A stretch of DNA of 64,000 nucleotides, from positions 1 to 64,000 of IMG/VR virus record IMGVR_UViG_3300044641_000885. One strand, written 5' to 3'. Under the pieces are notes generated by a model. It ran no database searches. It was not told the DNA's origin and saw only the letters and a program-made list of their open reading frames with translations. This document shows positions 5,202-25,880 of the stretch, piece after piece (the stretch's first letter is position 1; every line of letters begins with the position of its first letter). The DNA is from a virus. The translations under genes and the position numbers were made by a program.

Positions 5202-5588
5202 ATGAGTTTTGAAAAGAAAATAACAAAAGAAACCCCCCAAAAAGATACTGAAAGATACACCGACGAGATGCAAGCCTTAAGATACAATCAAGGTAAGTTA
5301 GAATGGTCATTGGTTGACTTTGACTCATTAGAAGGTCTAGTTAGAGTTTTAGAGTATGGGAAAAATAAATATGCACGGGATAACTGGAAGCTAGGTATGC
5401 CCGTAACTCAAGTTACCGAGAGTTTAATGAGGCATTTGTTTGCCTTTGCTAAAGGTGAGGATGTAGACCCTGAGTCAGGCTGTCGTCACATCTCACACGT
5501 ATTATGCAATGCAATGTTCTTAGAATACATCTTAAGAGAAAAACAACACTATGATGATAGGAAACCGAGTAACCCTAACGACTTATAA
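5202..5588 (+). CDS. MazG-type dATP/dGTP diphosphohydrolase (DUF5664/MazZ-like)
   Basis: 128 aa. The family hydrolyses purine dNTPs to dNMP plus pyrophosphate. The sequence has the hallmark start RYNQGKLEWSLVDFDSLEG, then VLEYGKNKYARDNWKLG, a helix with SLMRHLFAFAKGEDVDPESG, and CRHISHVLCNAMFLEYIL. The conserved E/D residues in the E-x-x-x-D type metal site and the final HxxH-like segment fit this all-alpha fold. Members of this family include MazZ, which helps make diaminopurine-containing phage DNA; nothing else from that pathway (PurZ) is visible here. The neighbouring dCMP deaminase suggests that this phage adjusts the host dNTP pool. Confidence 0.75.
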   Translation: MSFEKKITKETPQKDTERYTDEMQALRYNQGKLEWSLVDFDSLEGLVRVLEYGKNKYARDNWKLGMPVTQVTESLMRHLFAFAKGEDVDPESGCRHISHVLCNAMFLEYILREKQHYDDRKPSNPNDL

Positions 5589-8786: not shown

Positions 8787-11700
8787 ATGCCTAGTAATCC
8801 ACTGTTACCTCAAGAATTGTTGCTTTACATACAAGCATCAGCACAGAATGGTATTGTCCCACCAAGTCTACCTTCTGGATATGTATATGCAACTCCACCA
8901 ACAAGTGACGGGCATTTATACTTAAGAAGGTTTGATGCTGCTTATATTCAGACAGGAATCATTGACCCTAATCGTTTGGGAACAGGAGCTACAGGAGCAG
9001 GTAACCTTTACTTAGCTGACGATGGTACTTGGAAAGCAGTATCTACTGGAGGAGGTGGAGGAGATATGTATAAGTGTTTTCACCCCGACACAGAGTTATT
9101 AACTCTAAACGGCTGGAAAAAAATCACTGACATTTCATTTGATGATGAAGTAGCAACTCTTAATCAAGAGACAAAAGAGTTAGAATATCAAGTACCCAAT
9201 CACATATTTAAATACGAATATGACGGAGAACTATTAGGAAGAGAAACTAAGCAGTTGTCTTATTTGGTTACTCCTAACCATAGGATGTATGTAAGAAAAT
9301 GGTATGGAGGACAAAGAGGACTAGTTTGGTCTGAAGATTTTTATTGGGAAAGAGCCGATGAAGTTTCAGAAAAAATAAGATCGTTTCCAATAACAGCAAA
9401 GTGGATAGGAGTAAAAACAGAAACTAATCCGTTTGGGATTGATGATGATTTGTTTTTAGAATTTTTAGGTTGGTTTTTAGCCGAGGGTTGTGTAGTAGAA
9501 AGTAGAATTTATGTAACTCAGACAAAAAGCACAACACTTGCCGATTGTACTAAAGTTATGGTTGAGATGGCAAGAAGTTTAGAAAGAACTTTGCGTCATC
9601 ACCAAAACGCACACTTCAACTTTAGGCACTCAGAACTAGCAAAGTTTTTAAGTCAATTTGGAAAACACGCCCATAATAAATTTATTCCATCTTTCGTTAA
9701 GAATCTACCTCCAGAAAAGTTAATTTTATTTTATAGTGCCTACTACAAAGGAGACGGTCATCTAAATAGTAATAATATTACTACTGTATCAAAAAGAATG
9801 GCTGATGATTTACAAGAAATAATCTTAAAACTTGGAGGATACGCCACAATTACAAAATGCTCTCCTACAATTACTTCGTACGGTGTTCGAGACTTTTACA
9901 GACTAAATTGTAATTTCAATAACTTACAAGGAAGCACCGCTAAAAAAGACAATTATAAAATTGATTACAAAGGGTTCGTACATTGTGTAGAAGTAGATAA
10001 TTCTACTCTATATACAAGATTTAACGGAAAACCTGTATTTTTAGGAAACTCTACCTACGATGTAGACAATGACGGAGTAGTAGATAGTGCAGAGAGAACC
10101 GAAATTATAGTAAGGAACTCTACTGGTTCTACTCTAACTAAAGGTACAATTGTTTATTTAAGTGGAGCAACAGGAAACAGACCTAATGCCTTAAGAGCCC
10201 AAGCACATACTGAGGCTACTTCTTCAAAGACCATAGGTATGGTTGAAGCAGATATTCCGAATAACTCTGACGGATATGTTGCAACAAACGGAACTCTTCA
10301 CAACTTAGATACTTCGGCATTTACGGCTGGAGATGCTGTTTGGTTGTCTGCTACCACAGCAGGAGGAATAACAAGTACAATTCCAGCAGAACCCAATCAT
10401 ACAGTATTTATCGGGTATATTGCTAGAGCTCACCCTACCCAAGGTAGGATAGTTCTTCATATTCAAAACGGATATGAGTTAAATGAGTTGCACGGAGTTC
10501 AAATTTCCTCTGAGGCCAACAACGACCTTCTAGTTTATGAAACTTCAACTACTCTTTGGAAGAACAAAAGCATATCTACCATCTTCGGAGGTACTCCTTT
10601 GGTCTCAGTTCCTACCCTAGCACAAGTAACCACAGCAGGGAACACTACCACCAATGCGATTACTGTAGGAAATGCAACAACAAACAATTTAACAATTGAT
10701 GGTACAGGTTCGATATTAGTTACCTCAACTGCCTATGCCAACTCAGCAAGAATAGGAACAATTGGAGGATTTGACTTTTTATACGGTGCTTTTAGGGGGT
10801 TATTTATTGGTAACAACACCAATATGGGTAGGTGGGGAATTACTACAGTTAATGCACAAAGTTTACATATATGGCAACAAGCCAATAATCCAATAATTTT
10901 TGCGACAAATAATACAGAGGCAATGCGGATTGCCCCTAGTAATAATATCCTCATAGGCACTACTACCGATGCAGGATATAAGTTAGATGTTAATGGGACT
11001 TTAAGAACTACATCTAGTACTTATTTAGCTACCACCGCTGGTTTAGTGGGTATTGGAACAACGTCTCCCTCTGCTGCTCTTCATGTACAATCTGGTGCAG
11101 GAGGAAGAACTACTCTTGTATTCATAAGATCGATGAATTCTGCTGCTGAGCCAGCATTGCAATTTGCTAATAGCCTAGGTAACTTAGCTAAAATTGGCGG
11201 TATAAGCGGAGGAGGTTTGTATTTTGAAAATTCTACTACAGAGGTTATAAGGCTCTCCTCAACAGGAAATCTTCTCATAAACACAACCACAGATAGTGGC
11301 TATAAGTTAGATGTAAATGGTACTGCAAGAGTGCAGGGAAACGCACAATTCGGCACAGGTTTCTATTGGGATAACACGAATGCACGTTTGGGAATTGGTA
11401 CGACTAGTCCTGACAATAAAATAAGTGTTCTATCCATAGCAGGTGAGCAAACGATTATAAATATTGGTAAATCAAGTGTAGTCAATCAGGGAGTAAGCTC
11501 AATTTCATTTGGAGTAAATAATGGTACTTATAATAGCACAGGTCTGTTTAAGTATGAGGTAGGATTAGGTTTTGAAGGATTTGTATTTTCAACAGGTTCA
11601 ACTGCTAATTTGCTAACTATTAGAAATGATAGAGTTGGTATTGGCACATTATCACCTGGTGGAAGAACTGAAATTAGGACTACAAACGATAACGGGTTAT

Positions 11701-12950
11701 TATTGACTGCTAGTTCAGTAGACTCGACTTTTGGTCCTGTATTGGCTTTCCAAACAACAACAGGTTCAACAGGCATTGGTTCAGGTTCAGCTGATGTTAT
11801 AGTAAAAGGTCATAGAAGCGGATTACTTCGTTTTTCAAATAGAATTATTGGAAACACTTTAGACATAGCATCCACAGGCAATGTACTAATCGGAACCACT
11901 ACTGATGCTGGGTACAAGTTGGATGTGAATGGTACTGCTCAGCTAGGTAATAGTTCTATTACGGGTTTAAGCATATTGACATTGACTTCCTCATTTGGTA
12001 GTGTTGGATTAAGGGTTGGAGGAGGCGGAGCATTGCAAATAACGAGTGCGCTCACTGTGCTGGGAAGCAATGTGATAGTTTCTGATTATTTTTCAGGTGT
12101 TCGTATTCTTTTAGGAAATGGAAATGCAAGATTAGCCGCAAGTAATACAAGTTGGTTAGACGCACAAAACGTAAGTGGAACGTCAGCCGCAGGAAATTTG
12201 TCTGCAAATCTTGGAACATTTGGAACTACTTACGCTATAATTAATGCATCCGCACAAGTAGAAATAGCATCAACTACTCGTGGATTCCTACAACCACGCA
12301 TGACCAATGCTCAAGCAGTAGCAATTACTACGCCTGCAACTGGTCTTCAAGCATACGACACCACAAACAACAAAAACTTACTCTACAACGGAACTGCTTG
12401 GCAGAACATAGCAACTGAAAGTTGGGTAACAGCACAAGGCTATACCAATAACACAGGAACAGTAACTTCAGTAGCAACAGGTACAGGACTGACTGGAGGA
12501 ACAATTACTGGTAGTGGAACTATATCTCTAGCTAACACCGCTGTAACAGCAGGTGCTTATACAAACGCAAACATCACCGTAGACGCACAGGGAAGAATCA
12601 CCGCTGCTTCTAATGGAAGTGGAGGTGGGGGTTCTACAAGTACGATAAGTATAGGTGCTACTTCTAGTAGTAATGTGTACAGTTCTGCTTCAGTTGTTGG
12701 ACATATGAAGTTTGAGTATTGGTCAACTGATAACCCAGCCTCAGGTAAACAAGAGACAGGTGTTTTGTATGTTACTTACTACCCAGGTCCTATAGGCGGA
12801 TTTAACTATTGGCTAGATGTTCAAACAACAACCCCCGACAGTACTGCTCCTTTGAGTTTTACTATTACAGGAGGTCCCACCTTGGATATTAACATAACTA
12901 ACCCGAATCCATACGGTGTGGACATTACTTATAAAATTACTACTTTTTAA
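8787..12950 (+). CDS. Tail fibre protein interrupted by an intein
   Basis: 1387 aa precursor; removing the intein leaves 1062 aa. The N-terminus (PSNPLLPQELLLYIQ) and the Gly-rich linker before GDMYK resemble the virion-anchoring part of Bacteroidota phage fibres. The C-terminal extein carries many fibre-type beta repeats: three copies of an 18-residue GTTTDAGYKLDVNGT unit and several GIGTTSP units. The last 300 residues have the AVAITTPATGLQAYDTTNNK and GTVTSVATGTGLTGGTITGSGTI segments typical of these fibres, ending in a beta-rich receptor-binding-type domain. Unlike other structural genes it lies on the + strand with the early genes, but has its own host-type promoter. No tape-measure or chaperone domain is visible. 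Confidence 0.85.
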   Translation: MPSNPLLPQELLLYIQASAQNGIVPPSLPSGYVYATPPTSDGHLYLRRFDAAYIQTGIIDPNRLGTGATGAGNLYLADDGTWKAVSTGGGGGDMYKCFHPDTELLTLNGWKKITDISFDDEVATLNQETKELEYQVPNHIFKYEYDGELLGRETKQLSYLVTPNHRMYVRKWYGGQRGLVWSEDFYWERADEVSEKIRSFPITAKWIGVKTETNPFGIDDDLFLEFLGWFLAEGCVVESRIYVTQTKSTTLADCTKVMVEMARSLERTLRHHQNAHFNFRHSELAKFLSQFGKHAHNKFIPSFVKNLPPEKLILFYSAYYKGDGHLNSNNITTVSKRMADDLQEIILKLGGYATITKCSPTITSYGVRDFYRLNCNFNNLQGSTAKKDNYKIDYKGFVHCVEVDNSTLYTRFNGKPVFLGNSTYDVDNDGVVDSAERTEIIVRNSTGSTLTKGTIVYLSGATGNRPNALRAQAHTEATSSKTIGMVEADIPNNSDGYVATNGTLHNLDTSAFTAGDAVWLSATTAGGITSTIPAEPNHTVFIGYIARAHPTQGRIVLHIQNGYELNELHGVQISSEANNDLLVYETSTTLWKNKSISTIFGGTPLVSVPTLAQVTTAGNTTTNAITVGNATTNNLTIDGTGSILVTSTAYANSARIGTIGGFDFLYGAFRGLFIGNNTNMGRWGITTVNAQSLHIWQQANNPIIFATNNTEAMRIAPSNNILIGTTTDAGYKLDVNGTLRTTSSTYLATTAGLVGIGTTSPSAALHVQSGAGGRTTLVFIRSMNSAAEPALQFANSLGNLAKIGGISGGGLYFENSTTEVIRLSSTGNLLINTTTDSGYKLDVNGTARVQGNAQFGTGFYWDNTNARLGIGTTSPDNKISVLSIAGEQTIINIGKSSVVNQGVSSISFGVNNGTYNSTGLFKYEVGLGFEGFVFSTGSTANLLTIRNDRVGIGTLSPGGRTEIRTTNDNGLLLTASSVDSTFGPVLAFQTTTGSTGIGSGSADVIVKGHRSGLLRFSNRIIGNTLDIASTGNVLIGTTTDAGYKLDVNGTAQLGNSSITGLSILTLTSSFGSVGLRVGGGGALQITSALTVLGSNVIVSDYFSGVRILLGNGNARLAASNTSWLDAQNVSGTSAAGNLSANLGTFGTTYAIINASAQVEIASTTRGFLQPRMTNAQAVAITTPATGLQAYDTTNNKNLLYNGTAWQNIATESWVTAQGYTNNTGTVTSVATGTGLTGGTITGSGTISLANTAVTAGAYTNANITVDAQGRITAASNGSGGGGSTSTISIGATSSSNVYSSASVVGHMKFEYWSTDNPASGKQETGVLYVTYYPGPIGGFNYWLDVQTTTPDSTAPLSFTITGGPTLDINITNPNPYGVDITYKITTF
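9075..10049 (+). mobile_element. Intein with LAGLIDADG homing endonuclease, inside the tail fibre gene
   Basis: 325 residues, precursor positions 97-421. Splice start is Cys97 in MYK/CFHPDTELLTLNGW (block A). Block B TPNH has T162 and H165. Two LAGLIDADG-type helices are LGWFLAEG (227-234) and FYSAYYKGDGH (315-325). Block F is HCVEVDN, and block G is NGKPVFLGN ending in Asn421 before +1 Ser422. The penultimate residue is Gly instead of the common His, a known variant. All residues needed for splicing are present, so it is probably active. Joined exteins would read GGGGDMYK-STYDVDNDG, a natural fibre sequence. The insert's wording (many TTT, TTA, GAA codons) appears more AT-rich than the exteins, in line with a mobile element. 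Confidence 0.92.
10947..11000 (+). repeat. Fibre repeat unit 1 (GTTTDAGYKLDVNGT)
   Basis: Precursor residues 721-738, sequence ILIGTTTDAGYKLDVNGT. First of three near-identical copies. Confidence 0.85.
11271..11324 (+). repeat. Fibre repeat unit 2
   Basis: Precursor residues 829-846, LLINTTTDSGYKLDVNGT, differing from unit 1 at four positions. Confidence 0.85.
11883..11936 (+). repeat. Fibre repeat unit 3
   Basis: Precursor residues 1033-1050, VLIGTTTDAGYKLDVNGT, differing from unit 1 only in its first residue while the DNA carries many synonymous differences. Confidence 0.85.
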
Positions 12951-13548: not shown

Positions 13549-13600
13549 ATTTATCTAAGAGCCATAGTTAGTTTAGTATCTTCCTACGGTCACTGTTCTA

Positions 13601-13629
13601 ACCCTCACCAACTTGGTGGGGGTTTTTTT
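13601..13629 (+). terminator. Terminator closing the plus-strand arm
   Basis: Stem of ten pairs (13601-13610 with 13614-13623; one T-G wobble, loop ACT), followed by seven T residues. The T-run overlaps the end of the converging minus-strand gene. The reverse direction has no T-run, so it acts mainly on the + strand. Confidence 0.88.
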
Positions 13630-13909
13630 ATGCGTCGGGTAAATCTTTTAGATATAATACCTTTGGCTGATCTACGTGTTCTGTGAAGACAACCTGTAAG
13701 CCCTCTATAGAGAGTATCTTTACTTCAAAGATGATGTCTTCGGACACGTCGTCAATTAGCTTGAAGAGTTCTTTAATAAGAACTACATACTGTTCTTTAG
13801 TTAAAAGAATAGCATTAGGGTAGATACCCTTTTGTCTCTTTAACCCTGCATCTTTCTCAGACTCTAGGTAATAAGAATTGATTGCTTGTTGTACTTCATA
13901 TAAGTTCAT
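13628..13909 (-). CDS. Hypothetical protein, 93 aa, last gene of the late arm
   Basis: Not recognised. The N-terminal half is helical (YEVQQAINSYYLESEKDAG) and includes a segment LLTKEQYVVLIKELFKLIDD; the second half is beta-rich (IIFEVKILSIEGLQVVFTEH). It follows the secreted nuclease gene by 11 nt and is the promoter-distal gene of the lysis/signalling operon. There is no membrane segment or signal peptide. A nuclease inhibitor or modulator is conceivable from position alone, but nothing in the sequence shows it. Confidence 0.6.
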   Translation of the reverse strand: MNLYEVQQAINSYYLESEKDAGLKRQKGIYPNAILLTKEQYVVLIKELFKLIDDVSEDIIFEVKILSIEGLQVVFTEHVDQPKVLYLKDLPDA

Positions 13910-13920
13910 AACAGTAAATA

Positions 13921-14499
13921 TTACTGCACCTTATACTTAGTATAGTCTGTGGTATTAGGTGCTTCGTTTGCAAAATAATAGACTTCTTTCTTATTTCCAA
14001 ACTTTATGGTCTTATAAAAGGCAGTAGGTACAGTTGCACCTGTAGGTAACTTGACAGCTTTAGGGCCATAAATCACCCTTATCTCTACTTCTACTTTAGT
14101 TGTCTTAGCCAGCTCTCTCTCGTAAGCTTCCAGTAATCTCCAAGCACCTCTGTTAAGTTTCTCGTGTTGTAAGATACAATTCAAGTAAGAGAAGGTCTGC
14201 CACAGAGTTTCTCTAGTACAGTTAAAGTCAGCTGCTGGTGCACAATGTCCTTTGTCCCAAACATTTCCTTCATAATCCTTTCCGTCTGAGGTCTTTACAC
14301 TATCATTAGTGTAAAAGTCCATTCCTTTACGAGGATAAGAACCTGTAGGGCATTGTACCGTGTACCATACACGTTTAGGTTGTTGCAGAATCTCAGAATA
14401 AACACAAGAATAGATTGGTGTTTTGATAAACACGCTGTCTCTTTGAGCACTTAGAAAGGTGGTAACAAAGAGGAATAAGGATAAAGTAAAATTTCTCAT
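13921..14499 (-). CDS. Secreted DNA/RNA non-specific endonuclease (NucA family)
   Basis: 192 aa from the ATG at 14499. A longer frame starting at 14553 would place 18 residues before a classic signal peptide (MRNFTLSLFLFVTTFLSAQ), so the inner ATG is chosen. The enzyme cuts DNA and RNA non-specifically with one metal ion. The active-site motif DRGH appears as DKGH (D82-H85), followed by FSYLNCILQHEKLNRGAW with the Asn ligands N107 and N116, as in the NucA/EndoG fold. The enzyme would act in the periplasm or outside. It follows membrane and signalling genes in the lysis operon. It could degrade host DNA released on lysis or entering DNA of other phages. Confidence 0.85.
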   Translation of the reverse strand: MRNFTLSLFLFVTTFLSAQRDSVFIKTPIYSCVYSEILQQPKRVWYTVQCPTGSYPRKGMDFYTNDSVKTSDGKDYEGNVWDKGHCAPAADFNCTRETLWQTFSYLNCILQHEKLNRGAWRLLEAYERELAKTTKVEVEIRVIYGPKAVKLPTGATVPTAFYKTIKFGNKKEVYYFANEAPNTTDYTKYKVQ

Positions 14500-14512
14500 A
14501 CACAAATGTATG

Positions 14513-14662
14513 TTATAAATCCATTCTTTCCTTCTTAGCAAAATGCTGGTCAAAGAAAAAACTCAAACCAAAAGCTAGAATAATAATCATAGAAGCATTA
14601 AAGAAGCATACGATGTATACCTCTGCTACTTTTGCCCACTCTTGTATTGATAATAGTATCAT
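14513..14662 (-). CDS. 49-aa single-pass membrane protein
   Basis: A short gene. The frame starts with ATG at 14662, overlapping the stop of the upstream gene by ATGA (14659-14662), and ends 13 nt before the nuclease start. The protein begins with a short amphipathic part (MILLSIQEWAKVAEVY), then one hydrophobic helix (residues ~15-38: IVCFFNASMIIILAFGLSFFF) and a basic tail (AKKER). This gap would otherwise be unexplained. The stop/start overlap style is the same as in the two upstream genes, which is the main support. A small membrane partner of the neighbouring kinase/coiled-coil proteins, or an antiholin/pinholin-like protein, is possible. Confidence 0.7.
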   Translation of the reverse strand: MILLSIQEWAKVAEVYIVCFFNASMIIILAFGLSFFFDQHFAKKERMDL

Positions 14663-15216
14663 TTTCTTGAATCTTTAGAATCTGTTATATGTTTAACTCC
14701 CATTATTGTTCCAATAATAGAAAAACAGTTAGTTAGAATTATACCAAACATATTACTCCAGGTACTCTCAATGATCTTAGAGTCTAATCCTTTGCTTAAT
14801 ACGTAAAGATAAAGTACAGTTGTAAATATGCAGACAGCAGCTACAGCTCCTAACGCTACTTTTACTATCAATCCTATAAGTTCAAACTGAGTCTTCTTCT
14901 GAAGAGTCTCTAAATCATCTAGGGCTACTTCTCTTAACTTCTCAGACTCAGACAAAGCTCGTTTCAATTCAAGCATTAACTTCTCTTTCTCTGCTTGACT
15001 ATCTATTAGGTCTTTGTTCTGAGATTGTACTTGCTTAGTTACTTCTAGTCTTTTTCTACGAGTGTCTTGGTCTTTGGTCTTAGCCTCGTCTAAGTAGTCT
15101 TGAAAGTCTTTATCTTGAGTTTTTACTACTTTGAGTAAGTTTCCCTCTAATGCAATCTTCTTAGATTTGTAGAGGGAGACAAGAGAGCTTTCAATATCTT
15201 TACCAAAGGATATCAC
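14659..15216 (-). CDS. Coiled-coil membrane protein of the signalling operon, 185 aa
   Basis: Family not recognised. Residues ~1-110 are highly charged and helical, with heptad-like spacing over ~55-108 (QVQSQNKDLIDSQAEKEK, LKRALSESEKLREVALDDL), so a cytoplasmic coiled coil is likely. Two hydrophobic segments follow: ~113-140 (LIGLIVKVALGAVAAVCIFT) and ~154-174 (MFGIILTNCFSIIGTIMGV). The stop and start overlap both neighbours by ATGA. It lies directly after the response regulator, which has no output domain, so it is a candidate partner or effector. It does not look like a holin because of the long charged N-terminal half. Confidence 0.75.
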   Translation of the reverse strand: MISFGKDIESSLVSLYKSKKIALEGNLLKVVKTQDKDFQDYLDEAKTKDQDTRRKRLEVTKQVQSQNKDLIDSQAEKEKLMLELKRALSESEKLREVALDDLETLQKKTQFELIGLIVKVALGAVAAVCIFTTVLYLYVLSKGLDSKIIESTWSNMFGIILTNCFSIIGTIMGVKHITDSKDSRK

Positions 15217-15650
15217 TTATATATTTTAAAGGGAGCAGTTTTACTCTTATACCCGTCGTAGTCCTTACGGAAGGCTTCTAGTCTAGGTTCAATCTCGTCT
15301 GACTTAATTATCCAGAACTGAGCACCAACAGCTTTTGCTTTCTCTATCTCCTGTTTATCATCAGAAGAAGAAATAATCCCTATCACTACACCATTGCCGT
15401 ACTCAAAGTTAATCTTACGAATCAATTCTATGCCGTCAAAAGACGAACCTATAATATTAAGGTCAACAAATACACAGTCAGGCTTCTCTTCCACAGGGCC
15501 TTCTTGAAACCACTTCTTAAATAGTTTATCAGCTTCATCAGAAGAAGTTAAACTCTGTAAACTTAAAGTAATGTCTAACAGACTGCAAGAGTCTTCAAAC
15601 ACTAAGTGAAATAAGTCTTCATCGTCTACAAGTAATATTGAGTCTATCAT
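15213..15650 (-). CDS. Stand-alone response-regulator receiver domain
   Basis: 145 aa, a CheY-like receiver. The acid pocket is DDE at 9-11; the phosphoacceptor is D63 in CVFVDLNI; the switch residue lies in IISSS (94-96) and the conserved Lys is K116 in FWIIKS. It covers nearly the whole protein; only ~15 residues follow the last helix, so there is no DNA-binding or enzymatic output domain. It overlaps the kinase gene by ATGA and the coiled-coil gene by ATGA. Paired with the upstream kinase, it would receive phosphate and act by protein-protein contact. Confidence 0.9.
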   Translation of the reverse strand: MIDSILLVDDEDLFHLVFEDSCSLLDITLSLQSLTSSDEADKLFKKWFQEGPVEEKPDCVFVDLNIIGSSFDGIELIRKINFEYGNGVVIGIISSSDDKQEIEKAKAVGAQFWIIKSDEIEPRLEAFRKDYDGYKSKTAPFKIYK

Positions 15651-16840
15651 TTTATTTTTATCTTAAGTTTAGTTCCTGATTCTAGTTTCTCTGCAAATAC
15701 TTCAAACTTATGCTCTTCCATAATTGCAGTACATATATTTAGTCCAAGACCTGTTCCTGTTTCTTTCTGCCCTTCTTTTCTTTTATAGGGCTGAGACCAC
15801 TGGATTAAGTCTTCTTGAGACATTCCTCTACCGTTGTCTTGAAGGATTAGATAATCTCCCTCTACAAAGATACGCACTAACTTAGTACCTGAATCGTTGT
15901 ACTTGAGTCCGTTCCTAATAAGGTTGTCTACAGCTGTACAAAACAAAGACTCGTTAACTTCAATCTCTGGTAACTCTTCTATAACTACTTGTTTCTCGTA
16001 AGAGGTACTAGACAAGTAGCTGTGTAGAATATCTTTAAGGTTGTGTAACTTAAGTTCTAAGTGAGCATCTTGCTTAACTAGGTTAGTAAATTCTTTAACT
16101 CCATTATATACCTTTTGAGTATGAGTCAACCCTTCCTCTATCATTCTTAGCGGAGCGTCTATCTTTAACTCTTTAATCTGCTCTTCAGTCAGTCTTCTCT
16201 TTAAGGAAGAAAGTCCACGAGGAATGTAAGTGTTGATTCCTGAGTGCATGTCATGTCTTAAAATCTTTGCAGCGTGTTCTAAGTAAGAGTTTTTCTTAGC
16301 AATCTCTGCTTCAATCTTCTTCTTCTCAGTAATCTCAGTAGCAATTAAAAGGATTTTGTAAACCTCTCCATAGGGATCTTTGATAGGGTTAAAGTTCCCG
16401 TACAGCCAAACTCCATTACAGTTATACTCTCCTTGTTTAAAGTAACCTATCCTTAAGTGTGCCCAGAACTCCTTCCACTCTTTCATAGGAGAATCGTCTA
16501 CTTCTCTGTGACTTGTTATTTCTCCAAAGAGTTTCTTAAATTTATCGTTAGCATTAAGTATCTCTCCGTAAGTATCAAACTCTACCAGTATATTACTAGA
16601 GTTAATTGCATGAAAGGTAGCGTCAATGCTTTGAAACTTATACCTAGCCTTCCTGACAAACTCAATACAACCAAAGAAAAAGAATGGTAAGAAAGCTACC
16701 ACTAACCAAAACTCTAAGATTGCCTTTTCGTAATCTAAGAAGTTGTACTTTAGTACAACTGTAGACTTAGTATAAAGTAGACAAAGCATGAGTATGCCCG
16801 CTATCACTATACTTATTCTAGCTCTTGTGCTTAACTGCAT
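15647..16840 (-). CDS. Membrane sensor histidine kinase with PAS domain
   Basis: 397 aa. Two N-terminal membrane helices (~8-28 and ~43-63) are separated by a short loop, so almost no periplasmic sensor domain is present. A PAS domain covers ~68-178, ending in the PAC-type segment DPYGEVYKILLIATEITEKK. The phosphoacceptor helix has H196 in ILRHDMHSGINTYIPRGL, a non-standard H-box. The catalytic domain has the N-box DNLIRNGLKYND (305-316), the G1 box DNGRGM (335-340) and the G2 box GTGLGL (362-367). All ATP-binding features are intact, so it should be active. It is 3 nt downstream of a spanin-like gene, which places it within the lysis operon. I do not know of this arrangement in crAss-like phages. 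Confidence 0.93.
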   Translation of the reverse strand: MQLSTRARISIVIAGILMLCLLYTKSTVVLKYNFLDYEKAILEFWLVVAFLPFFFFGCIEFVRKARYKFQSIDATFHAINSSNILVEFDTYGEILNANDKFKKLFGEITSHREVDDSPMKEWKEFWAHLRIGYFKQGEYNCNGVWLYGNFNPIKDPYGEVYKILLIATEITEKKKIEAEIAKKNSYLEHAAKILRHDMHSGINTYIPRGLSSLKRRLTEEQIKELKIDAPLRMIEEGLTHTQKVYNGVKEFTNLVKQDAHLELKLHNLKDILHSYLSSTSYEKQVVIEELPEIEVNESLFCTAVDNLIRNGLKYNDSGTKLVRIFVEGDYLILQDNGRGMSQEDLIQWSQPYKRKEGQKETGTGLGLNICTAIMEEHKFEVFAEKLESGTKLKIKIK

Positions 16841-16843
16841 ACA

Positions 16844-17215
16844 TTATAAGATAAGACTAAAGATAGCAAGAATAGACATACCTAAGAATCCGTACTTGTA
16901 CATCTTCATCTCAAGGTTCTTGCGGTCTATCACACGATTAAGTCTAGTTACTTCTTTCTTTGACTCTTCTACCATAACCTGATAGTTAGGAACAATAGAA
17001 TCCCTATACAAATTAATTTGCTGACTGTCTAAATGAATTACGTTCTTAAGAACAACGACTCTCTCTCTGGCTTTGATACCTTTGAGGAATTCGTTATTCA
17101 ACTCCTTTAGCGGTAAGCTGTCTAGAGATTGTGAGTAAGAACTTTGTGCCGTCAATATCAGGCATAGTGTCAAGAGCAATCTGAATAGTATCATACTTGA
17201 GGTTGATTTTTTCAT
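16844..17215 (-). CDS. Exported spanin-like protein, overlaps the upstream spanin gene
   Basis: 123 aa from the ATG at 17215, which gives a regular signal peptide: basic MKKSTSS, hydrophobic core FRLLLTLCLILTAQ and a cleavage region near SSYSQ. A further ATG at 17233 adds six residues without improving this. The mature part is helical with coiled-coil character (YQVMVEESKKEVTRLNRVIDRKNLEM) and ends in a hydrophobic C-terminal helix (YGFLGMSILAIFSLIL). There is no lipobox Cys, so it is not a standard Rz1 lipoprotein. It overlaps the upstream gene out of frame by about 120 nt, as often seen for Rz/Rz1 pairs. Role inferred: membrane disruption at lysis. Confidence 0.6.
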   Translation of the reverse strand: MKKSTSSMILFRLLLTLCLILTAQSSYSQSLDSLPLKELNNEFLKGIKARERVVVLKNVIHLDSQQINLYRDSIVPNYQVMVEESKKEVTRLNRVIDRKNLEMKMYKYGFLGMSILAIFSLIL

Positions 17216-17414
17216 AGTAACTAAATTGTTCATGTTTAAGTGTAGATAAAGAATCTACCCTACTGAGGAAACTTTCGTTACGTTTTTCCATAGAGTCCAT
17301 GTAAGCCATAAATTTCTCTTCACTACCGCTACTTAAGCTTTGTCTTTCCCATAACAAAAAAGCTACTGTGATTAGTAGTAGCCCTATAACAATAACTTCA
17401 ATCTTGTTTTTCAT
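17094..17414 (-). CDS. Rz-like inner-membrane spanin (putative)
   Basis: 106 aa. One N-terminal membrane helix (IEVIVIGLLLITVAFLLW) is followed by a periplasmic helical segment with Met/Glu/Ser-rich coiled-coil character (KFMAYMDSMEKRNESFLSRVDSL) and a C-terminal tail (MPDIDGTKFLLTISRQL). This is the i-spanin layout. It starts 17 nt inside the end of the holin-like gene and its last ~120 nt encode the start of the next gene in another frame. The position between a holin and another exported coiled-coil protein supports the lysis role, while sequence similarity to known Rz is too weak to see by eye. Confidence 0.6.
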   Translation of the reverse strand: MKNKIEVIVIGLLLITVAFLLWERQSLSSGSEEKFMAYMDSMEKRNESFLSRVDSLSTLKHEQFSYYEKINLKYDTIQIALDTMPDIDGTKFLLTISRQLTAKGVE

Positions 17415-17817
17415 TTACTTTATGTTGGTCGATTTTATCTAAGATTAACTGCAGTAACTCATTCTTTATGAACCCTGCCCTAGCTGCGTTCTTGAGTGCA
17501 CTTATAAGCTGAAAGAGAATAAAGGGAGCACAGATAGTCTCACTTAGCCAGAAAGTACCTTCAAAGCCCTTCTCAATCATCAAGATACCTGTAAGCATAA
17601 ATACCCACACCATTAAAGTCTTAAGTACACTTAGTGCTTTGTGTGTTTTAAAGCCTTCCATCTTAGTTCCTGCCCATACCCCAAAGAATCCATCTATAAA
17701 CACAACAGCAACTACAGCTAAGTACTGTTCAGCATTATCTGCTCCTAGATTAAGGAAGTAAGTTCCTAAGAAAGCTAAGAGAGTTGTACCTGTGTATAAG
17801 AGGAAAGAGGTCTTCAT
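17398..17817 (-). CDS. Holin-like membrane protein (phage holin family 4-type)
   Basis: 139 aa with about four hydrophobic segments: LLYTGTTLLAFLGTYFL, YLAVVAVVFIDGFFGVWAG, ALSVLKTLMVWVFMLTGILM and ICAPFILFQLISALKN. The D-G-F-F-G-V-W-A-G motif after the second helix and the later charged tail (DKIDQHKVNEKQD) match the holin_4 family, where a 'D-x-x-x-G' motif is followed by K-x-x-x-x-S. Holins form lesions in the inner membrane and set lysis time. Its ATG overlaps the upstream stop by one base (TAATG). It is the first recognisable lysis gene of the operon. Confidence 0.8.
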   Translation of the reverse strand: MKTSFLLYTGTTLLAFLGTYFLNLGADNAEQYLAVVAVVFIDGFFGVWAGTKMEGFKTHKALSVLKTLMVWVFMLTGILMIEKGFEGTFWLSETICAPFILFQLISALKNAARAGFIKNELLQLILDKIDQHKVNEKQD

Positions 17818-19439: not shown

Positions 19440-22400
19440 TTAATCAGGGTCACTAAAAGAACTATCTTCTATGGGTTCTAGTTCTCTTAGTTGGCTTTTA
19501 AGAGTTCTTATCAAGTCTCTAGTGTATCTCTTTTCTCTACTTATAGATTCTTCGTAACTTTCACTCTTCTCAGCTTCAGGGATACTCATTCCAGGCATGG
19601 CTACTTTTAATAACTTATCTAGTACTTTACGTGACTCTTGTCCTTCCTTTGCTGCTATTTTCTTCTCTTCTTCGTAGTTACGGATGACATAGTTCTTGTC
19701 TTGCATTTCTACCTTAGCTAGTCGTCTTTCTGCCCACTCTAAAAGATTAGTTCTAAACTCTTGTATGTTCTCGGACTTCAAAGCAGTCAAGTCGCCAGCT
19801 TCGTACTTTTCTATATTCCCTAAGTCCCTAGCCAATAAGTCTTTTTGTAATTCTTGGATCTTTTTATCGTTCTGTACATAGTCTCCCAAAGGATCTTTGA
19901 GTCCAAGCATAGGACTTAATTTAAGTATGTCTTGTACACGTTTCTTAGGTTCGGTAAATGGCTTTAATCCTAGTTCTACTCCATAAACCTTAAGTAAAAC
20001 TGCTTGCCATCTCTGTAATCCTGCCGTTGGCTTTGGTGTATTTACCACACTCTTACCTCCTATACCACCTCTACGTTGTTCATAGTACTCTCCAAAAGGA
20101 TCTGTTACGTTTTTCCAATCAAATACAGCTTCATAGATTTGGTCATAGCTTCTCATCTGTTGTCCAAACACAGTATACAAGCCATGTTTAACTACACTAG
20201 ATACACCTTCTCTATCTTCCCCTGGTTTGTCTAGAGGTCTGCGGCAGAATGTCTTATAAATATAATTACTAGGAGCTAGTATAGGATGTAAGCTGATATA
20301 CTCGTCATAAGTACCCAATGCAATTAACGCAAGTAAGGATAGTACTTTATCTTCTCCGTCACCTCCTGATAGATTTGCAAGTACCATTCCAATCAAAGAG
20401 TAAGAAAGCAAATGTAACCCCAATGCATTGCCAGTATCTCTAACTATTCTTTCGTACTTTTCTTTCTCAAGGGCAGTACTTCCTAGATTAGTTCTTTCTC
20501 TATTAGATAAGTATTGAAGCTTCCGTGCGATTGCTTTACCTCCTGCCCTATAAAAACCTTCTTCTATGTTTCCAGTATATAAACTTAGTCTTTGTTTCCC
20601 GTAGTTTGTCTGTAGTAAAGGTTGTAACCACCTTTTCATACTAAAGACAAAAGACGTGAATATATTACCCTCATAGAAAGAACGAGTTCGTGTAAAGTAG
20701 TTACCCTGTGTACTAGTGTAGAGTTCGTGTATTTGGTCTCTTAAATACTGTTCTACTTGACGTAGCTTTTCTCTTTTTACCTTATTAGAATCTTCTAATG
20801 ACTTGATCTTTGTATCTTGTTTTTTAAGTAAGTCATTTAGAGCAATCTTTTGTGGGGTAGACAAGCGGTCATAGCTTGATACCTGTGCTGAGGATAAATA
20901 ATTGTTTAGGATTTGTTGGCGTTCTACTATCAAACTCCTCATAGCATTTTGCTCCAAACCAAACACACCGTCTTTAGGCACAAGCATACCATTTATTACA
21001 TCGTAAGCATCTTCTAATTTAATCTGTACTTCCTGCCCATTAACCATCATAGGTACGGTCATACGTGCCATCAATGCTTCGTAGATGGGAATTGTAGATG
21101 CCATCTCCGTATATCCAAATATCTGAGAACTAAAGTTGTTTAGATTTATGTACTTATAGATATTACGTTGGTGTACGTTACCAGCCATTGAAGTTGGATT
21201 TGCACTAGGTACAGCTCTAAAATACATTAGTTTTAATGCATAGTCATTGTACTTACGAGAACCATTCTCTAACTGCATTAAACTTCTGTGACTTTGCATT
21301 CCCCTCCACCAAGCCTTTAACAATTCCTTACGTGTAAGACCATACTTGTTCTTAGACAACATAATCTTTAAGAAGTTATTAAAGACGTTTTTAAACAGAC
21401 GCATAAAGTTAAATACCAATGCTCTAGTCTGTGTGAACCTAAACATTCGTCTAAATACCCTAGCGGCAATCTTTAGGTATTTGTTGTCTGGATTGCTTAC
21501 TTCACCTCCGTAAAAGAATCTGTTTACTTCGTTGTCAATAACTTGTAAGTCGTTCTTAGGAGTTTTTCCTTCTAGGGCTTCTCTAGCGGCAAAGATTGCA
21601 GGCATAGCTTTTTGTAAACCTTGGAACTCTGCAGCGTATACTCCATAATTAGCTAGAGATTGAGTCAACAGGTGGGATACTTGATTGACATTTACAGGTT
21701 GTTTGTATCTAGTTTTAATTAATTGTACTTTACGACCTTTACCACGACTCTCTGCGTTCTTATTAGCTTGGATAATACTACTGTCTACTTCATCTAAAGT
21801 TTCTCCAGGTAATCCTTCCTTCCACAATAGTTTAATACTGTCAAAGAAAGTATGGAATCTCTTTTTAATGTTTGTTTCAGTTACTCTTTCTTGACCACTT
21901 TTGACTGCGTTTGGTACTACATAACCTCTAAGTCTTTGACTTGCAGGGAGTTTTCTTTGAATGTCTTCATACAAACCTACCAAATCTCCTACCAACGCTT
22001 TGTCTTCATTGTTTAACTTTTCGTAGTCTGGGTTATTATATTTACCGTCAGTAGTTTCTTTGGGTCTTAAATCCCCTAAGAAGTTATAGTCTTTGTTTTT
22101 GTACTCGTCTCTTACCCTAGGGATAGTCCACTCAAAGCTAGGATTCTCTTGTCTAATATATTTAGAGTCAGAAGGAATGGTCTTAGTCCAAATATATATA
22201 GGGCGTTCTGTTACATCTTCAAACTCTTCTCCCGAATCTTTATCAAATCTTTTGCGTACTATGCTAATGTGATTGGCTTTATACCAGTCAGTGTCAAGCA
22301 TACGTTTATTGACTTCATTAGAATAAAGAACACTATAGTAAGCATCTATTAAATTCTTTCTGTAGATAGCAGATTTAAGGTCTGTTAAAGTTTGAGCTGT

Positions 22401-25400
22401 AGGCAACTCGTCTAATGCACTAGGGTCTGAAAAGATACCAACGTCTAAATGGTTGCCATCAGTTTCAATAAAGTGGTCTGCCATCTTTTCAGCCTTGGTT
22501 TGCATTTCTGCAAGTAAAACTGTCTCAGTAGCGAGTTGACCTCTAATGTTTCTCTTGACACTTTCTACTACTTCGTAGTAATAGTCTGTCTTCTCTTTTG
22601 TTTGTAGTGCAAACAATCTTTTGAACAATCCTTTTAACAGAAGTTTATCTGCATCTGTCATGTTACGATTCTGGTCTGCAGCATCCTTTAAATCTTCTAT
22701 CTCATTTTCAATCTCACGGATAGTTTCACTTAACCCTAACTCAACTGCCGAACCTACTATAACTCCATCTTGGTCTCTATAACCTTTAACTGCATTAAAC
22801 AACCTAGTATATGCATCGTTAATCTCTGGGCTCTCTCCATATTTAAGAAAGACTGCCTTAATCTTATCAGCAATAGTTTGTTGTAACTCAAAAAACTGAG
22901 GATCTATTTCTATTCTAGTGTTGCCCTTGAGCCAAGTAGCTAAGTTGTTTTGTGCTTCTACTAGATTTTCTTTTTCTTCAAACAACTTACTTTGGAGTGC
23001 AGTTGTGTTTTGACCTAAAGCTTCTGCATCTGCTAAGTCTGTTTCTAGAATACCAATACGAGTCTTAACCTGCTTTACAGCATCTTTACGACTTTGCTTT
23101 TCTATGTTAAACCTCTTAAGTACTGCTTCAGGAATAGTAAACTCAACAACATCAAGTTCTTTTCTTCTCTGCTTATAAGATATAATAGATTCAGCAATAT
23201 CCCTTTCTTTTGAGCCTATGGGTTTTTCTGACCCGTCCTCATTAAATATAGAACCTAATCTCTCGTATTGTCTTCTGAGGTCTCCACGTACCTTACGATC
23301 TTCTTCTGTAGAGTCAACGTCTCCAAATACGTCTATGTGTTCTTTTATCTCGTCTAGTAAGGCGGCTCTAGCTTCACGAGCTTCTTCACTTAAAAGCGAT
23401 TCTGCCTGATAATACTCATCCGTGTATCTACCTACTGCATACTTTTCTTGGAAATCTCCCAATGCTTTTTCCGCTGCTAGTATATCAGCTTCAACTCCTG
23501 CCTTTTCTGCTACTTCTAAGTTATGCTGAAGGTCAAGCAAATCAGAGTAGAACTCAGCTTCTTTAAATTTAGTGTTATAGGCTAACTGTTTTACTTTAGT
23601 TCTTCTTCCTTGCTCGTCATAATAGATCATATCTACCTCACGAGTTAACCCTTGGTAATGTTTATCTACAGTACTAAAGGCACTTACATTCCCTCTTTGT
23701 TTGTTTCTAGCTTCTACACGACGTTCAATGGCTTCTGCTCGTGTAGTTGTATCTATACTTGAGTTCTCTGCTTCTGTTAAATGGACATCTAAGAACTGTT
23801 TAAGTACTTGAACTACAGGGCTGCCAGAACTCGTAGCCATACCCATGTATACATTCCACATAGTTGCTCCTTCATATGAAGGGTCCATACCTCTTTGTAG
23901 AAGTATTTGTATGTTCTGTGTAGTTGGCACCCAAGACAAAAAGTACTTTAAGTTTTGAATGTCTGACTCTAGGTTTTTTATCTTTTTAGCTTCATTGTTA
24001 GCTTGTGCATCTAGTAACAAAGCTTCTTTAGCAGCAAGTTCTTGATTAAGTTGACTGTCTGAAGCTTGTAGCTTTTTACTAATTAATCTAAAAGGTTCTG
24101 CAAGCTGAGAAGCTACGGGAATAATAATAGCTTTTTGAGCAGCAGTACGTAAGTTAGTACTATTGTTTTGTATTCTTTCTAACTTGGTCTGTAACTCTTT
24201 AACAACTACATCATAGTTTTCTATCTGTCTTCTGCGTTCCTGTAAGAATTCTGCCTTACCAGTTGGGTCTAACGCCAATTGGTCTTTAGTTACATTCATT
24301 ACAAGTTCAGGCATCAACAAGCTATTAAAGCTTTCTACTTGCTCGTTGATTAAGTCCGATAGGTTTTTAGCGTAGTTAAACAAACGTATAGCCTCTACAT
24401 CTGACATCTGGCTTAGATTGTCCTCTGTTGTTTTGACTGTTGTTTGAATCCGTTTAAGTATGTTCTCTAATGCATCTATATAACTTACAGTAGAGTTAAT
24501 AGTATCTGCTACTCCAGCACTAGATATATTGCCAAGCTTTTGTTTAATTCTTTCAATAGAGCCAAAGCGTGGATCTATCTCTGATAAAGCTTGAGACATC
24601 TGTGCCCAACTAGAACTGTTTAAACTCTCTCGTACATAGTTTTGAAACTTACTTAAATCTATTGAAGGAGGCGTTACTGTGGCACTACTATAGGGAGCAT
24701 TGAATCTTAGTTGATGTTCTCCTGCCAGTTCAGGCATATCTTCTAAACTTTCTAAGTAATCAAAGTACTCGTTTAAAGTAACATCTAAGTCACTTAAAGA
24801 TACGTTGGTAAACTGACCCTTTAAGAATCTTTTTATAGTTGCAACAAGTCTTCCTAGTAAGCCAGTATTCTTAGCTTTCTGTTCTGCCTCTTGGAGTGTT
24901 TCTCTAAAATAAGGATTAGATAGATACTCACTTACAAACTCTTCAGTATTCTTAAATCCGTAGTTATTCTGAAGTAAAGGAAAGTTACTTCTATATTGGG
25001 ATAAATACCTATCCATCTCTTGAGAGAATTGTATCTCTGCAGGAGTTTGAGGGTTAGTCAAAGCGTGGATAGTGTATGCGTGTAATGTCTCGTGGATAAG
25101 TTCCTTAACGAAACTTTTACTATTAAAGTCAGATGAAACCGTCTTACCTACGTATACCGTATTGGTTTTAGGGTCATAGAAAGATCTTTGATACTCGTCT
25201 GCTACAGTAGCATCATCAAACACTACCAACTTTAAAGTTGGATTAATCCTAAGTAAGCTACTAAGTCTGGTTAAGATTTCCTTTTGGAAGTTCTCTGTCT
25301 CCCCGCTATTAACAACTCCGTCAATAAGTTCTTTTAACTGTGCGTTAGAAAAGTCTTGCACGCTGTTGACTATCAAAGAAGGGAACTTTACTTTGTTTAA

Positions 25401-25880
25401 GTATGCTTTACTTACAGGCTTTAAAGTCTTTTCAGATATAGCTGGTTTAACTGATAAATAGTATTTACCATCACGGGTTACTACCTCACTTGTGATTAAA
25501 TCATACTTAGGGTTTAGATTAATCTCTTCGTGGATAAACTCAAAGGCATTGGGATTTGTATATCCTATGTTCAAGTATCCAAGAGAAGCTACCTCTTCTA
25601 TTTGTTCTGCTGACCTAATCTCTTGGTCAGTCATATTCAATCTAAGATGTTTGTTAATCTCCTGTATGCTAGGCTCTCCTACAAAGTTTAACTTAGGACT
25701 ATATCCTAGTTGTCGCTTTGTCCAGTCAAAACCAAACTCTGTTTTAAATGTATTTGTAGTCAGTGCCTCATAAATACTTTTACCTTGTGCAGGTGGAAAG
25801 AATGAAGTCAACTGATAGTATGCAGGACTTGTAACTTGAAGACCTGACAGAGGGGATTTTATGGTAGCAAAACAAGACAT
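19440..25880 (-). CDS. Giant virion protein with HExxH metallopeptidase-like site
   Basis: 2146 aa. An HExxH zinc site is at H263-E264-T-L-H267 (LIHETLHAYT), and a possible third ligand lies in the NTEEFVSEYL segment ~45 residues later, which gives a gluzincin-like pattern. Most of residues 400-1250 are helical and coiled-coil-like. The region ~1450-1650 has Arg/Trp-rich helices. A hydrophobic segment lies near ~1820-1870 (LLSYSLIGMVLANLSG, VLSLLALIALG), and the C-terminus is charged. The size and position fit the giant ejection or cargo proteins of crAss-like phages. It has its own promoter, and the gene order places it after the RNA polymerase. The peptidase could mature virion proteins or open the cell wall during entry; that is inference. 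Confidence 0.75.
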   Translation of the reverse strand: MSCFATIKSPLSGLQVTSPAYYQLTSFFPPAQGKSIYEALTTNTFKTEFGFDWTKRQLGYSPKLNFVGEPSIQEINKHLRLNMTDQEIRSAEQIEEVASLGYLNIGYTNPNAFEFIHEEINLNPKYDLITSEVVTRDGKYYLSVKPAISEKTLKPVSKAYLNKVKFPSLIVNSVQDFSNAQLKELIDGVVNSGETENFQKEILTRLSSLLRINPTLKLVVFDDATVADEYQRSFYDPKTNTVYVGKTVSSDFNSKSFVKELIHETLHAYTIHALTNPQTPAEIQFSQEMDRYLSQYRSNFPLLQNNYGFKNTEEFVSEYLSNPYFRETLQEAEQKAKNTGLLGRLVATIKRFLKGQFTNVSLSDLDVTLNEYFDYLESLEDMPELAGEHQLRFNAPYSSATVTPPSIDLSKFQNYVRESLNSSSWAQMSQALSEIDPRFGSIERIKQKLGNISSAGVADTINSTVSYIDALENILKRIQTTVKTTEDNLSQMSDVEAIRLFNYAKNLSDLINEQVESFNSLLMPELVMNVTKDQLALDPTGKAEFLQERRRQIENYDVVVKELQTKLERIQNNSTNLRTAAQKAIIIPVASQLAEPFRLISKKLQASDSQLNQELAAKEALLLDAQANNEAKKIKNLESDIQNLKYFLSWVPTTQNIQILLQRGMDPSYEGATMWNVYMGMATSSGSPVVQVLKQFLDVHLTEAENSSIDTTTRAEAIERRVEARNKQRGNVSAFSTVDKHYQGLTREVDMIYYDEQGRRTKVKQLAYNTKFKEAEFYSDLLDLQHNLEVAEKAGVEADILAAEKALGDFQEKYAVGRYTDEYYQAESLLSEEAREARAALLDEIKEHIDVFGDVDSTEEDRKVRGDLRRQYERLGSIFNEDGSEKPIGSKERDIAESIISYKQRRKELDVVEFTIPEAVLKRFNIEKQSRKDAVKQVKTRIGILETDLADAEALGQNTTALQSKLFEEKENLVEAQNNLATWLKGNTRIEIDPQFFELQQTIADKIKAVFLKYGESPEINDAYTRLFNAVKGYRDQDGVIVGSAVELGLSETIREIENEIEDLKDAADQNRNMTDADKLLLKGLFKRLFALQTKEKTDYYYEVVESVKRNIRGQLATETVLLAEMQTKAEKMADHFIETDGNHLDVGIFSDPSALDELPTAQTLTDLKSAIYRKNLIDAYYSVLYSNEVNKRMLDTDWYKANHISIVRKRFDKDSGEEFEDVTERPIYIWTKTIPSDSKYIRQENPSFEWTIPRVRDEYKNKDYNFLGDLRPKETTDGKYNNPDYEKLNNEDKALVGDLVGLYEDIQRKLPASQRLRGYVVPNAVKSGQERVTETNIKKRFHTFFDSIKLLWKEGLPGETLDEVDSSIIQANKNAESRGKGRKVQLIKTRYKQPVNVNQVSHLLTQSLANYGVYAAEFQGLQKAMPAIFAAREALEGKTPKNDLQVIDNEVNRFFYGGEVSNPDNKYLKIAARVFRRMFRFTQTRALVFNFMRLFKNVFNNFLKIMLSKNKYGLTRKELLKAWWRGMQSHRSLMQLENGSRKYNDYALKLMYFRAVPSANPTSMAGNVHQRNIYKYINLNNFSSQIFGYTEMASTIPIYEALMARMTVPMMVNGQEVQIKLEDAYDVINGMLVPKDGVFGLEQNAMRSLIVERQQILNNYLSSAQVSSYDRLSTPQKIALNDLLKKQDTKIKSLEDSNKVKREKLRQVEQYLRDQIHELYTSTQGNYFTRTRSFYEGNIFTSFVFSMKRWLQPLLQTNYGKQRLSLYTGNIEEGFYRAGGKAIARKLQYLSNRERTNLGSTALEKEKYERIVRDTGNALGLHLLSYSLIGMVLANLSGGDGEDKVLSLLALIALGTYDEYISLHPILAPSNYIYKTFCRRPLDKPGEDREGVSSVVKHGLYTVFGQQMRSYDQIYEAVFDWKNVTDPFGEYYEQRRGGIGGKSVVNTPKPTAGLQRWQAVLLKVYGVELGLKPFTEPKKRVQDILKLSPMLGLKDPLGDYVQNDKKIQELQKDLLARDLGNIEKYEAGDLTALKSENIQEFRTNLLEWAERRLAKVEMQDKNYVIRNYEEEKKIAAKEGQESRKVLDKLLKVAMPGMSIPEAEKSESYEESISREKRYTRDLIRTLKSQLRELEPIEDSSFSDPD

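Follow-up and report, generated by a model that had tools for sequence, protein, structure and literature searches.

A nearly virus-only two-component cassette with a membrane coiled-coil protein, often encoded beside the lysis genes of uncultured phages

Bacterial two-component systems with a CheY-like single-domain regulator, in which phosphate passes from a histidine to an aspartate and the bare receiver acts by contact, are the closest described counterpart of a gene cassette that we analysed in the IMG/VR virus record IMGVR_UViG_3300044641_000885, using a window of 64,000 bases of this 68,465-base record. The cassette encodes a sensor histidine kinase (HK), a receiver-only response regulator (RR) and a coiled-coil membrane protein, which we call COIL. 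It shares with CheY-like systems the H, N, G1 and G2 boxes of the kinase, the DD, D, S and K residues of the receiver and overlapping genes. It differs from them in occurring almost only in viral contigs and because kinase and receiver, unless a contig ends there, invariably come with a coiled-coil membrane protein that belongs to no known family, and it departs from the classical transcriptional type in that its RR lacks a DNA-binding output domain. Class II holins, which have two transmembrane (TM) helices and both ends inside, resemble COIL in that it too has two TM helices, the second with a polar face, but COIL carries a long coiled coil before the TM hairpin and matches no holin in sequence or fold.

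Two phage systems come close in purpose or in gene position. Lysis inhibition in phage T4 (holin T, antiholins RI and RIII) controls the timing of lysis at the membrane level in response to an outside signal, to our knowledge without a kinase, and is what the cassette may work like. The T4 antiholins are described, in the accessible text of two papers, as binding the holin directly (PMC11413866, PMC8385771). The agr genes of the Clostridioides phage phiCDHM1 include a phage histidine kinase gene immediately after the lysis genes, but the accessible portion of their description places them on the anti-sense strand, reports no response regulator in the phage and proposes a host origin (PMC3901668). 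The jumbo-phage protein cREC, a divergent receiver, is another receiver-fold protein found in phages, described in the available part of its source as never found with histidine kinases (PMC7824862). As far as their accessible text goes, a deep-sea virus paper handles two-component pathways as host metabolism (PMC5513705), and a 2026 review of phage communication contains nothing of this kind (PMC13389391). In the open-access literature, no account of phages carrying a complete two-component system as a dedicated unit turned up, in agreement with the initial annotation of this DNA, which knew of no phage system of this make-up.

The cassette is a virus-borne unit, present in diverse phages and nearly restricted to viruses. 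A COIL alignment run against viral contigs returned at least 596 confirmed COIL-encoding stretches, the 80 best loci being retained, whereas the same alignment run against 84,980 bacterial and archaeal species genomes returned a single relative. The contig of this lone cellular copy (locus L105), 16.8 kb long and from an uncultured bin, holds a complete cassette; as it has a flanking protein in common with the viral loci L152 and L155, it may be phage DNA that was placed in a bacterial bin. Scans of viral contigs with HK and COIL as queries yielded 56 and 51 loci, respectively, and a scan started from RR added 66 new loci, 64 of them complete and two cut by the contig end; these scans use short peptide patterns, which distant relatives can escape. 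One COIL query against 72,556 plasmid records and three (tblastn) against 50,697 phage records found no match, while tblastn against the same phage records returned nothing for RR and a single weak match for HK, 92 residues at 33%.

The three genes behave as one unit. Counting overlapping stretches of the same contigs, there are 172 loci; those with different core-gene DNA number 120 and are called distinct. HK, RR and COIL are all present in 158 of the 172, the missing gene of the other 14 lying beyond the contig end, and all of the 108 complete loci among the 120 distinct ones have the order HK-RR-COIL on one strand. The commonest gene spacing is -4 (52 HK-RR and 54 RR-COIL pairs), some loci having wider spacing and other open reading frames (ORFs) between RR and COIL. 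In the window, HK/RR and the junction of COIL with the following gene for a 49-amino-acid protein are ATGA overlaps, as first annotated, but RR/COIL, also taken for ATGA, is GTGA, with COIL starting at GTG.

The phages carrying this unit are diverse. Among the 78 loci with at least ten flanking genes, called by greedy ORF choice, 2233 of the 3003 locus pairs (74%) have no flanking protein in common, and linking at three or more shared hits sorts these loci into 23 phage groups, the largest with 23 and 17 loci. For contig-wide tests, 50 contigs spanning 15.6 to 322 kb were chosen from 66 candidates of at least 15 kb, near-duplicates being dropped by eye. The terminase domain PF03237 was detected in 13 of 51 records, a set that includes the window's own record, where it gave no match; it thus supports a phage nature for those 13 only.

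HK matches Pfam HATPase_c (2.3e-12) and has, in alignment and model, the phospho-accepting histidine and the N, G1 and G2 boxes of two-component kinases. H196 is invariant in all 94 homologues with letters at this position, as are N306 and N310 of the N box in 95 of 95, D335, G337 and G339 of the G1 box (each 94 of 94) and G364 and G366 of the G2 box (94 of 94). Its AlphaFold model (mean pLDDT 88) has the architecture TM-TM-PAS-DHp-CA, with two long N-terminal helices about seven residues apart followed by a PAS domain, a two-helix DHp and the ATP-binding domain. The PAS domain proposed in the initial annotation falls below the Pfam cut-off (PAS_9, E 0.014), but it is present in the model, and the HK family profile matches solved PAS chains as well as kinase chains. 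This predicted PAS resembles chains of the aerotaxis receptor and of NifL, which bind FAD, and may offer a lead towards redox sensing.

The sensor part varies between phages. When 96 kinase sequences were classed by the position of the RHD motif, rather than by domain searches, the phospho-accepting motif lay within the first 110 residues in 16, leaving the TM part only, 51 had space for about one PAS, two further classes of 16 and 7 had space for more, and six, cut by a contig edge or lacking the motif, stayed unclassed. At least one N-terminal TM helix is predicted in 85 of 90 complete kinases and at least two in 72. The TM hairpin is thus common to most kinases and stands alone in 16, which points to a membrane-borne signal in those. 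In loci L086, L096, L136 and L141, two kinase genes lie in tandem, or nearly so, upstream of a single RR-COIL pair, as if two inputs served one output.

RR matches Pfam Response_reg (3.5e-8) and has no further domain, so that the absence of a DNA-binding domain, noted from the beginning, is borne out, and a receiver of this kind would act by contact. The original and RR-scan locus sets together hold 146 distinct full-length RR genes; complete RRs are 143-166 amino acids long, and across 23 other representatives they are 69-90% identical to the window copy. The acidic pair, phospho-acceptor aspartate, S/T and K of receivers are all in place, D9, D10 and D63 being invariant in 92 of 92 sequences, S94 in 91 of 91 and K116 in 89 of 89. 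The HK-RR distance correlation is r=0.85, as linked genes would show anyway. Median dN/dS is 0.125 for HK (236 pairs), 0.070 for RR (244 pairs) and 0.087 for COIL (90 pairs). With invariant motifs, H196 and D63 having been set beforehand as the test, and purifying selection on all three genes, the phosphorelay is intact, as the initial annotation had it.

By its sequence, COIL is a new protein family, recognised by none of the four libraries searched, with nothing over the cut-off in Pfam and no match in PHROGs, NCBIfam or PADLOC. Hydrophobicity and the model both place two TM helices in this small membrane protein. The model (mean pLDDT 82, pTM 0.36) shows a 107-residue helix continuing into a second helix that forms the TM hairpin, the arrangement of these parts being unreliable given the pTM. 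The identity of COIL to the window copy drops to 43%, and mean conservation reaches 0.92 in the second TM helix, compared with 0.52-0.69 in the rest of the protein; five invariant polar residues lie on one face of this helix (p ~0.014, tested on one sequence). When the fold of COIL was searched against PDB, nothing matched at E 0.001 and just generic helical proteins came up; in BFVD, the single true relative was 41% identical and is an uncharacterised protein from an uncultured phage of the Caudovirales. Neither the family libraries nor the fold searches revealed homology to known holin families, and the lack of any PHROG match extends to antiholin RI and RIII homologues.

COIL is the natural candidate for the output of the phosphorelay, one of several targets already envisaged in the initial annotation, because no COIL gene lacking HK-RR was seen other than where a contig ends. 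Variable sensors combined with a frozen output side, namely RR and the second TM helix of COIL, are what a shared effector step would leave. At seven loci (among them L031, L033, L034, L148 and L161), a protein of about 165 amino acids with two to three predicted TM helices (family 41) is encoded between RR and COIL.

The initial annotation further proposed that the cassette is part of the lysis operon and times lysis, and our data show a link to lysis genes that is real but partial. Seven lysis-type families were mapped in the 50 contigs: PG_binding_1, GH19, Amidase_2, holin 4_1, GH24 lysozyme, Peptidase_M15_3 and phrog_3000. The last, named as of unknown function, was counted on two grounds: its members match PHROG 33083 (endolysin) too, and in L042 a peptidoglycan-binding domain is fused to them; phrog_181 was inspected and not counted, and PF13539 gave nothing over its cut-off in the contig set. 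ORFs longer than 400 amino acids being excluded from the main test, 38 contigs had at least one lysis-type ORF, which lay within 1 kb of COIL in 11 contigs (3.8 expected under uniform placement), within 3 kb in 21 (7.7 expected, p<1e-4) and within 5 kb in 23 (11.1 expected). With the longer ORFs included, 21 of 42 contigs had one within 3 kb, against 8.6 expected. When each phage group is given a single vote, the excess in the main test holds at 3 kb (p=0.003) and at 5 kb (p=0.03). Among the distinct loci, 64 of 120, in 8 of the 23 phage groups, have a lysis-type gene within 5 kb, and in 59 of the 64 it lies within 1.5 kb. For lysis families f1 and f33, both formed by single-linkage clustering, the Pfam and PHROGs searches covered just the representatives; the 120-locus count was repeated with profile searches from verified seeds.

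The families next to the cassette (holin 4_1, GH24, GH19, Amidase_2, M15_3 and phrog_3000) are unrelated, and enzyme families that change from group to group are what a functional link would leave, although 15 groups show none. The case that tells most is that of L041, L042 and L043, where a GH24 lysozyme, HK, RR, COIL and an endolysin are encoded consecutively, with opposite-strand ORFs on both sides. The L042 endolysin has a peptidoglycan-binding and a phrog_3000-type domain, and COIL is the only holin candidate inside this run; a holin may lie elsewhere in those contigs, though PF05105 had no match in the two of this type that were searched (G011 and G012). The run in L055 comprises a 2-TM protein, HK, RR, COIL, a small TM protein, a phrog_3000-type gene and a holin. 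Upstream of the kinase, L050 (715-855) and L055 (3247-3390) encode an o-spanin-like lipoprotein of 46-47 amino acids with a lipobox recognised by eye (LAAC, LASC). Members of family 4 (L048, L139, L148, L159, L162, L170 and others), proteins of 330-464 amino acids for which a coil and some four TM helices are predicted, lie near a holin or near COIL; for the L159 member nothing exceeded the Pfam cut-off and no PHROG matched below E 0.05.

Several observations weigh against a role in lysis timing or in membrane sensing. No lysis-type gene was found within 5 kb in 56 of the 120 loci and 15 of the 23 groups; among the 36 loci whose flanks are long in either direction, 17 have such a gene and 19 lack it. 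In 15 of the 38 contigs, the recognised lysis-type gene is more than 5 kb from COIL, up to 158 kb away. Of the refuting conditions named in the initial annotation, the one on H196 and D63 does not apply, but the idea withstands the one on cassettes without lysis genes only in part. Groups with any close case are not in excess, with 8 of 14 at 3 kb (5.7 expected, p=0.12) and the same group count at 5 kb compared with 7.4 expected (p=0.48). The nearest lysis genes are on the same strand in 61 of 64 loci, a share only slightly higher than that of flanking ORFs in general (84% within 1.5 kb). Fold searches of COIL in PDB and BFVD returned no holin or channel. Finally, no TM helix is predicted in 5 of the 90 complete kinases, so a membrane signal cannot be general. 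The 15 groups are weak evidence, because annotation of lysis genes is poor in phages of this sort.

Taking both sides together, we favour, with somewhat better than even confidence, a virus-specific phosphorelay that has a membrane protein as its output and most likely sets the timing of lysis. HK would sense the membrane state by way of its TM hairpin and, in the majority of these phages, also a cytoplasmic signal through PAS-type domains, then autophosphorylate on H196 and pass the phosphate to D63 of RR. The most likely contact target of RR would be the cytoplasmic coiled coil of COIL, which would in turn change the state of the COIL TM hairpin. In this way the phage would control the host membrane towards the end of infection, most probably setting when holin and endolysin act. 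Reading a signal to time lysis is our leading inference rather than a result, and the cassette might trigger lysis or delay it. Tentatively, and as a somewhat unlikely extension, COIL might itself be a phosphorylation-gated holin, phosphorylated RR docking on the coil to open the polar-faced TM hairpin or hold it shut. Phages of the L041-L043 type would then use COIL as their only holin, while those of the window, L055 and L159 would use it beside a classical holin, and a large set of uncultured phages would run lysis by two-component signalling with interchangeable sensors.

A phosphorelay with COIL as its output could also be real and act on something other than lysis, such as maintenance of the envelope or of the proton-motive force, or superinfection exclusion. 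COIL as a membrane protein without a lysis family match, the phage groups in which no lysis gene was seen nearby, and the adjacent secreted nuclease of the window, which could act on incoming DNA, would all suit such a target. We nevertheless find it rather doubtful, given the excess of lysis-type genes of unrelated families near the cassette, the lysozyme-to-endolysin run of L041-L043 and the lack of a match to defence models. An anti-phage defence system as such was considered and rejected, none of five window proteins matching PADLOC models at E 0.1.

It is improbable that the cassette is a functional passenger whose proximity to lysis genes merely reflects a permissive insertion site at the ends of late operons. 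Extra genes commonly sit at the ends of late blocks, the neighbours of the cassette differ between groups, and groups with any close case do not exceed expectation in number; but the excess at 3 kb persists with one vote per group, and in L041-L043 the cassette is flanked by two peptidoglycan hydrolase genes. Decayed or recently captured host genes are hardly credible, and we reject this reading: HK and RR do belong to ordinary bacterial families, but their motifs are invariant, dN/dS is low, the three-gene order is constant, and the hundreds of viral stretches contrast with one match among the species genomes.

The phosphorelay genes of the window lie at the end of a minus-strand block, transcribed in the order holin, 106-amino-acid protein, 129-amino-acid protein, HK, RR, COIL, 49-amino-acid protein, nuclease, 93-amino-acid ORF and hairpin (Table 1). 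All ORF positions of the initial annotation were confirmed, as was its holin. The two genes that it called spanin-like could not be upheld as such: the 106- and 129-amino-acid ORFs match no family over the cut-off in Pfam or PHROGs, and no lipobox is visible by eye in the 129-amino-acid protein.

Table 1. Coordinates of the cassette and its neighbours in the window.
Feature	Position	Strand	Evidence
Sensor histidine kinase (HK), 397 amino acids: two TM helices, PAS, DHp with H196, ATP-binding domain	15647-16840	-	Pfam, model, alignment
Receiver-only response regulator (RR), 145 amino acids, phospho-acceptor D63	15213-15650	-	Pfam, alignment
COIL, 185 amino acids: predicted cytoplasmic coiled coil, then C-terminal TM hairpin; proposed output; GTG start	14659-15216	-	
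49-amino-acid single-TM protein, directly after COIL	14513-14662	-	
DNA/RNA non-specific nuclease, secreted	13921-14499 (ORF open from 14553)	-	Endonuclease_NS 1e-23 (Pfam)
129-amino-acid protein: signal-like N-terminus, hydrophobic C-terminus	16844-17233	-	
106-amino-acid protein with N-terminal TM helix	17094-17414	-	
Holin	17398-17817	-	Phage_holin_4_1 4.6e-5 (Pfam); PHROG 199 holin 3.9e-5
93-amino-acid ORF, last gene of the operon	13628-13909	-	
Terminator-like hairpin, between convergent gene blocks	13600-13624	.	

Relatives of the 49-amino-acid protein directly follow COIL in 13 of the 120 distinct loci, and in PHROGs it matches, weakly, just families without an assigned function (best E 0.019). 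The nuclease gene lies inside the range covered by the initial annotation, which did not describe it; its likely start is at 14499, because a signal-peptide-like N-terminus results. Such a secreted enzyme, encoded at the operon's end, could serve to remove the DNA of the host at lysis or to degrade DNA that enters the cell. In a DNA search of the 50,697 phage records, the nuclease alone matched, in four records, and over 218 bases it is 71% identical to a gene of Flavobacterium phage immuto. This match, the only pointer to the host, suggests a Flavobacterium-like one.

Elsewhere in the window, family searches identified a DNA polymerase, NinG, exonuclease VIII, dCMP deaminase and virion structural proteins. 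No endolysin was recognised among the 35 window ORFs put to these searches. ORF 5202-5588 was considered and rejected as one, since its matches to PHROGs named 'endolysin; inhibits RNA polymerase' (4.2e-22, 1.5e-13) are outscored by dATP/dGTP pyrophosphohydrolase (4.7e-37), as which its sequence reads. A promoter scan found fewer sites than in shuffles (10 vs 17.6). A fibre-like protein of 1387 amino acids (8787-12950, plus strand) contains an intein-like insertion, delimited by eye at about residues 95-375, and a LAGLIDADG_3 domain at residues 313-370 (E 2.9e-7) supports a homing intein. Three giant minus-strand proteins, at 19440-25880 (2146 amino acids), 26529-34202 (2557 amino acids) and 34205-41617 (2470 amino acids), have no PHROG match at E 0.001.

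In conclusion, HK and RR are two-component proteins, and the whole is a new, nearly virus-only form of two-component signalling. Many uncultured phages may thus read a signal to decide when to burst their host. If this is true, a signal-transduction layer, with swappable sensors and a frozen membrane output, would operate at the end of infection, and what a phage senses before it kills the cell would become directly testable.

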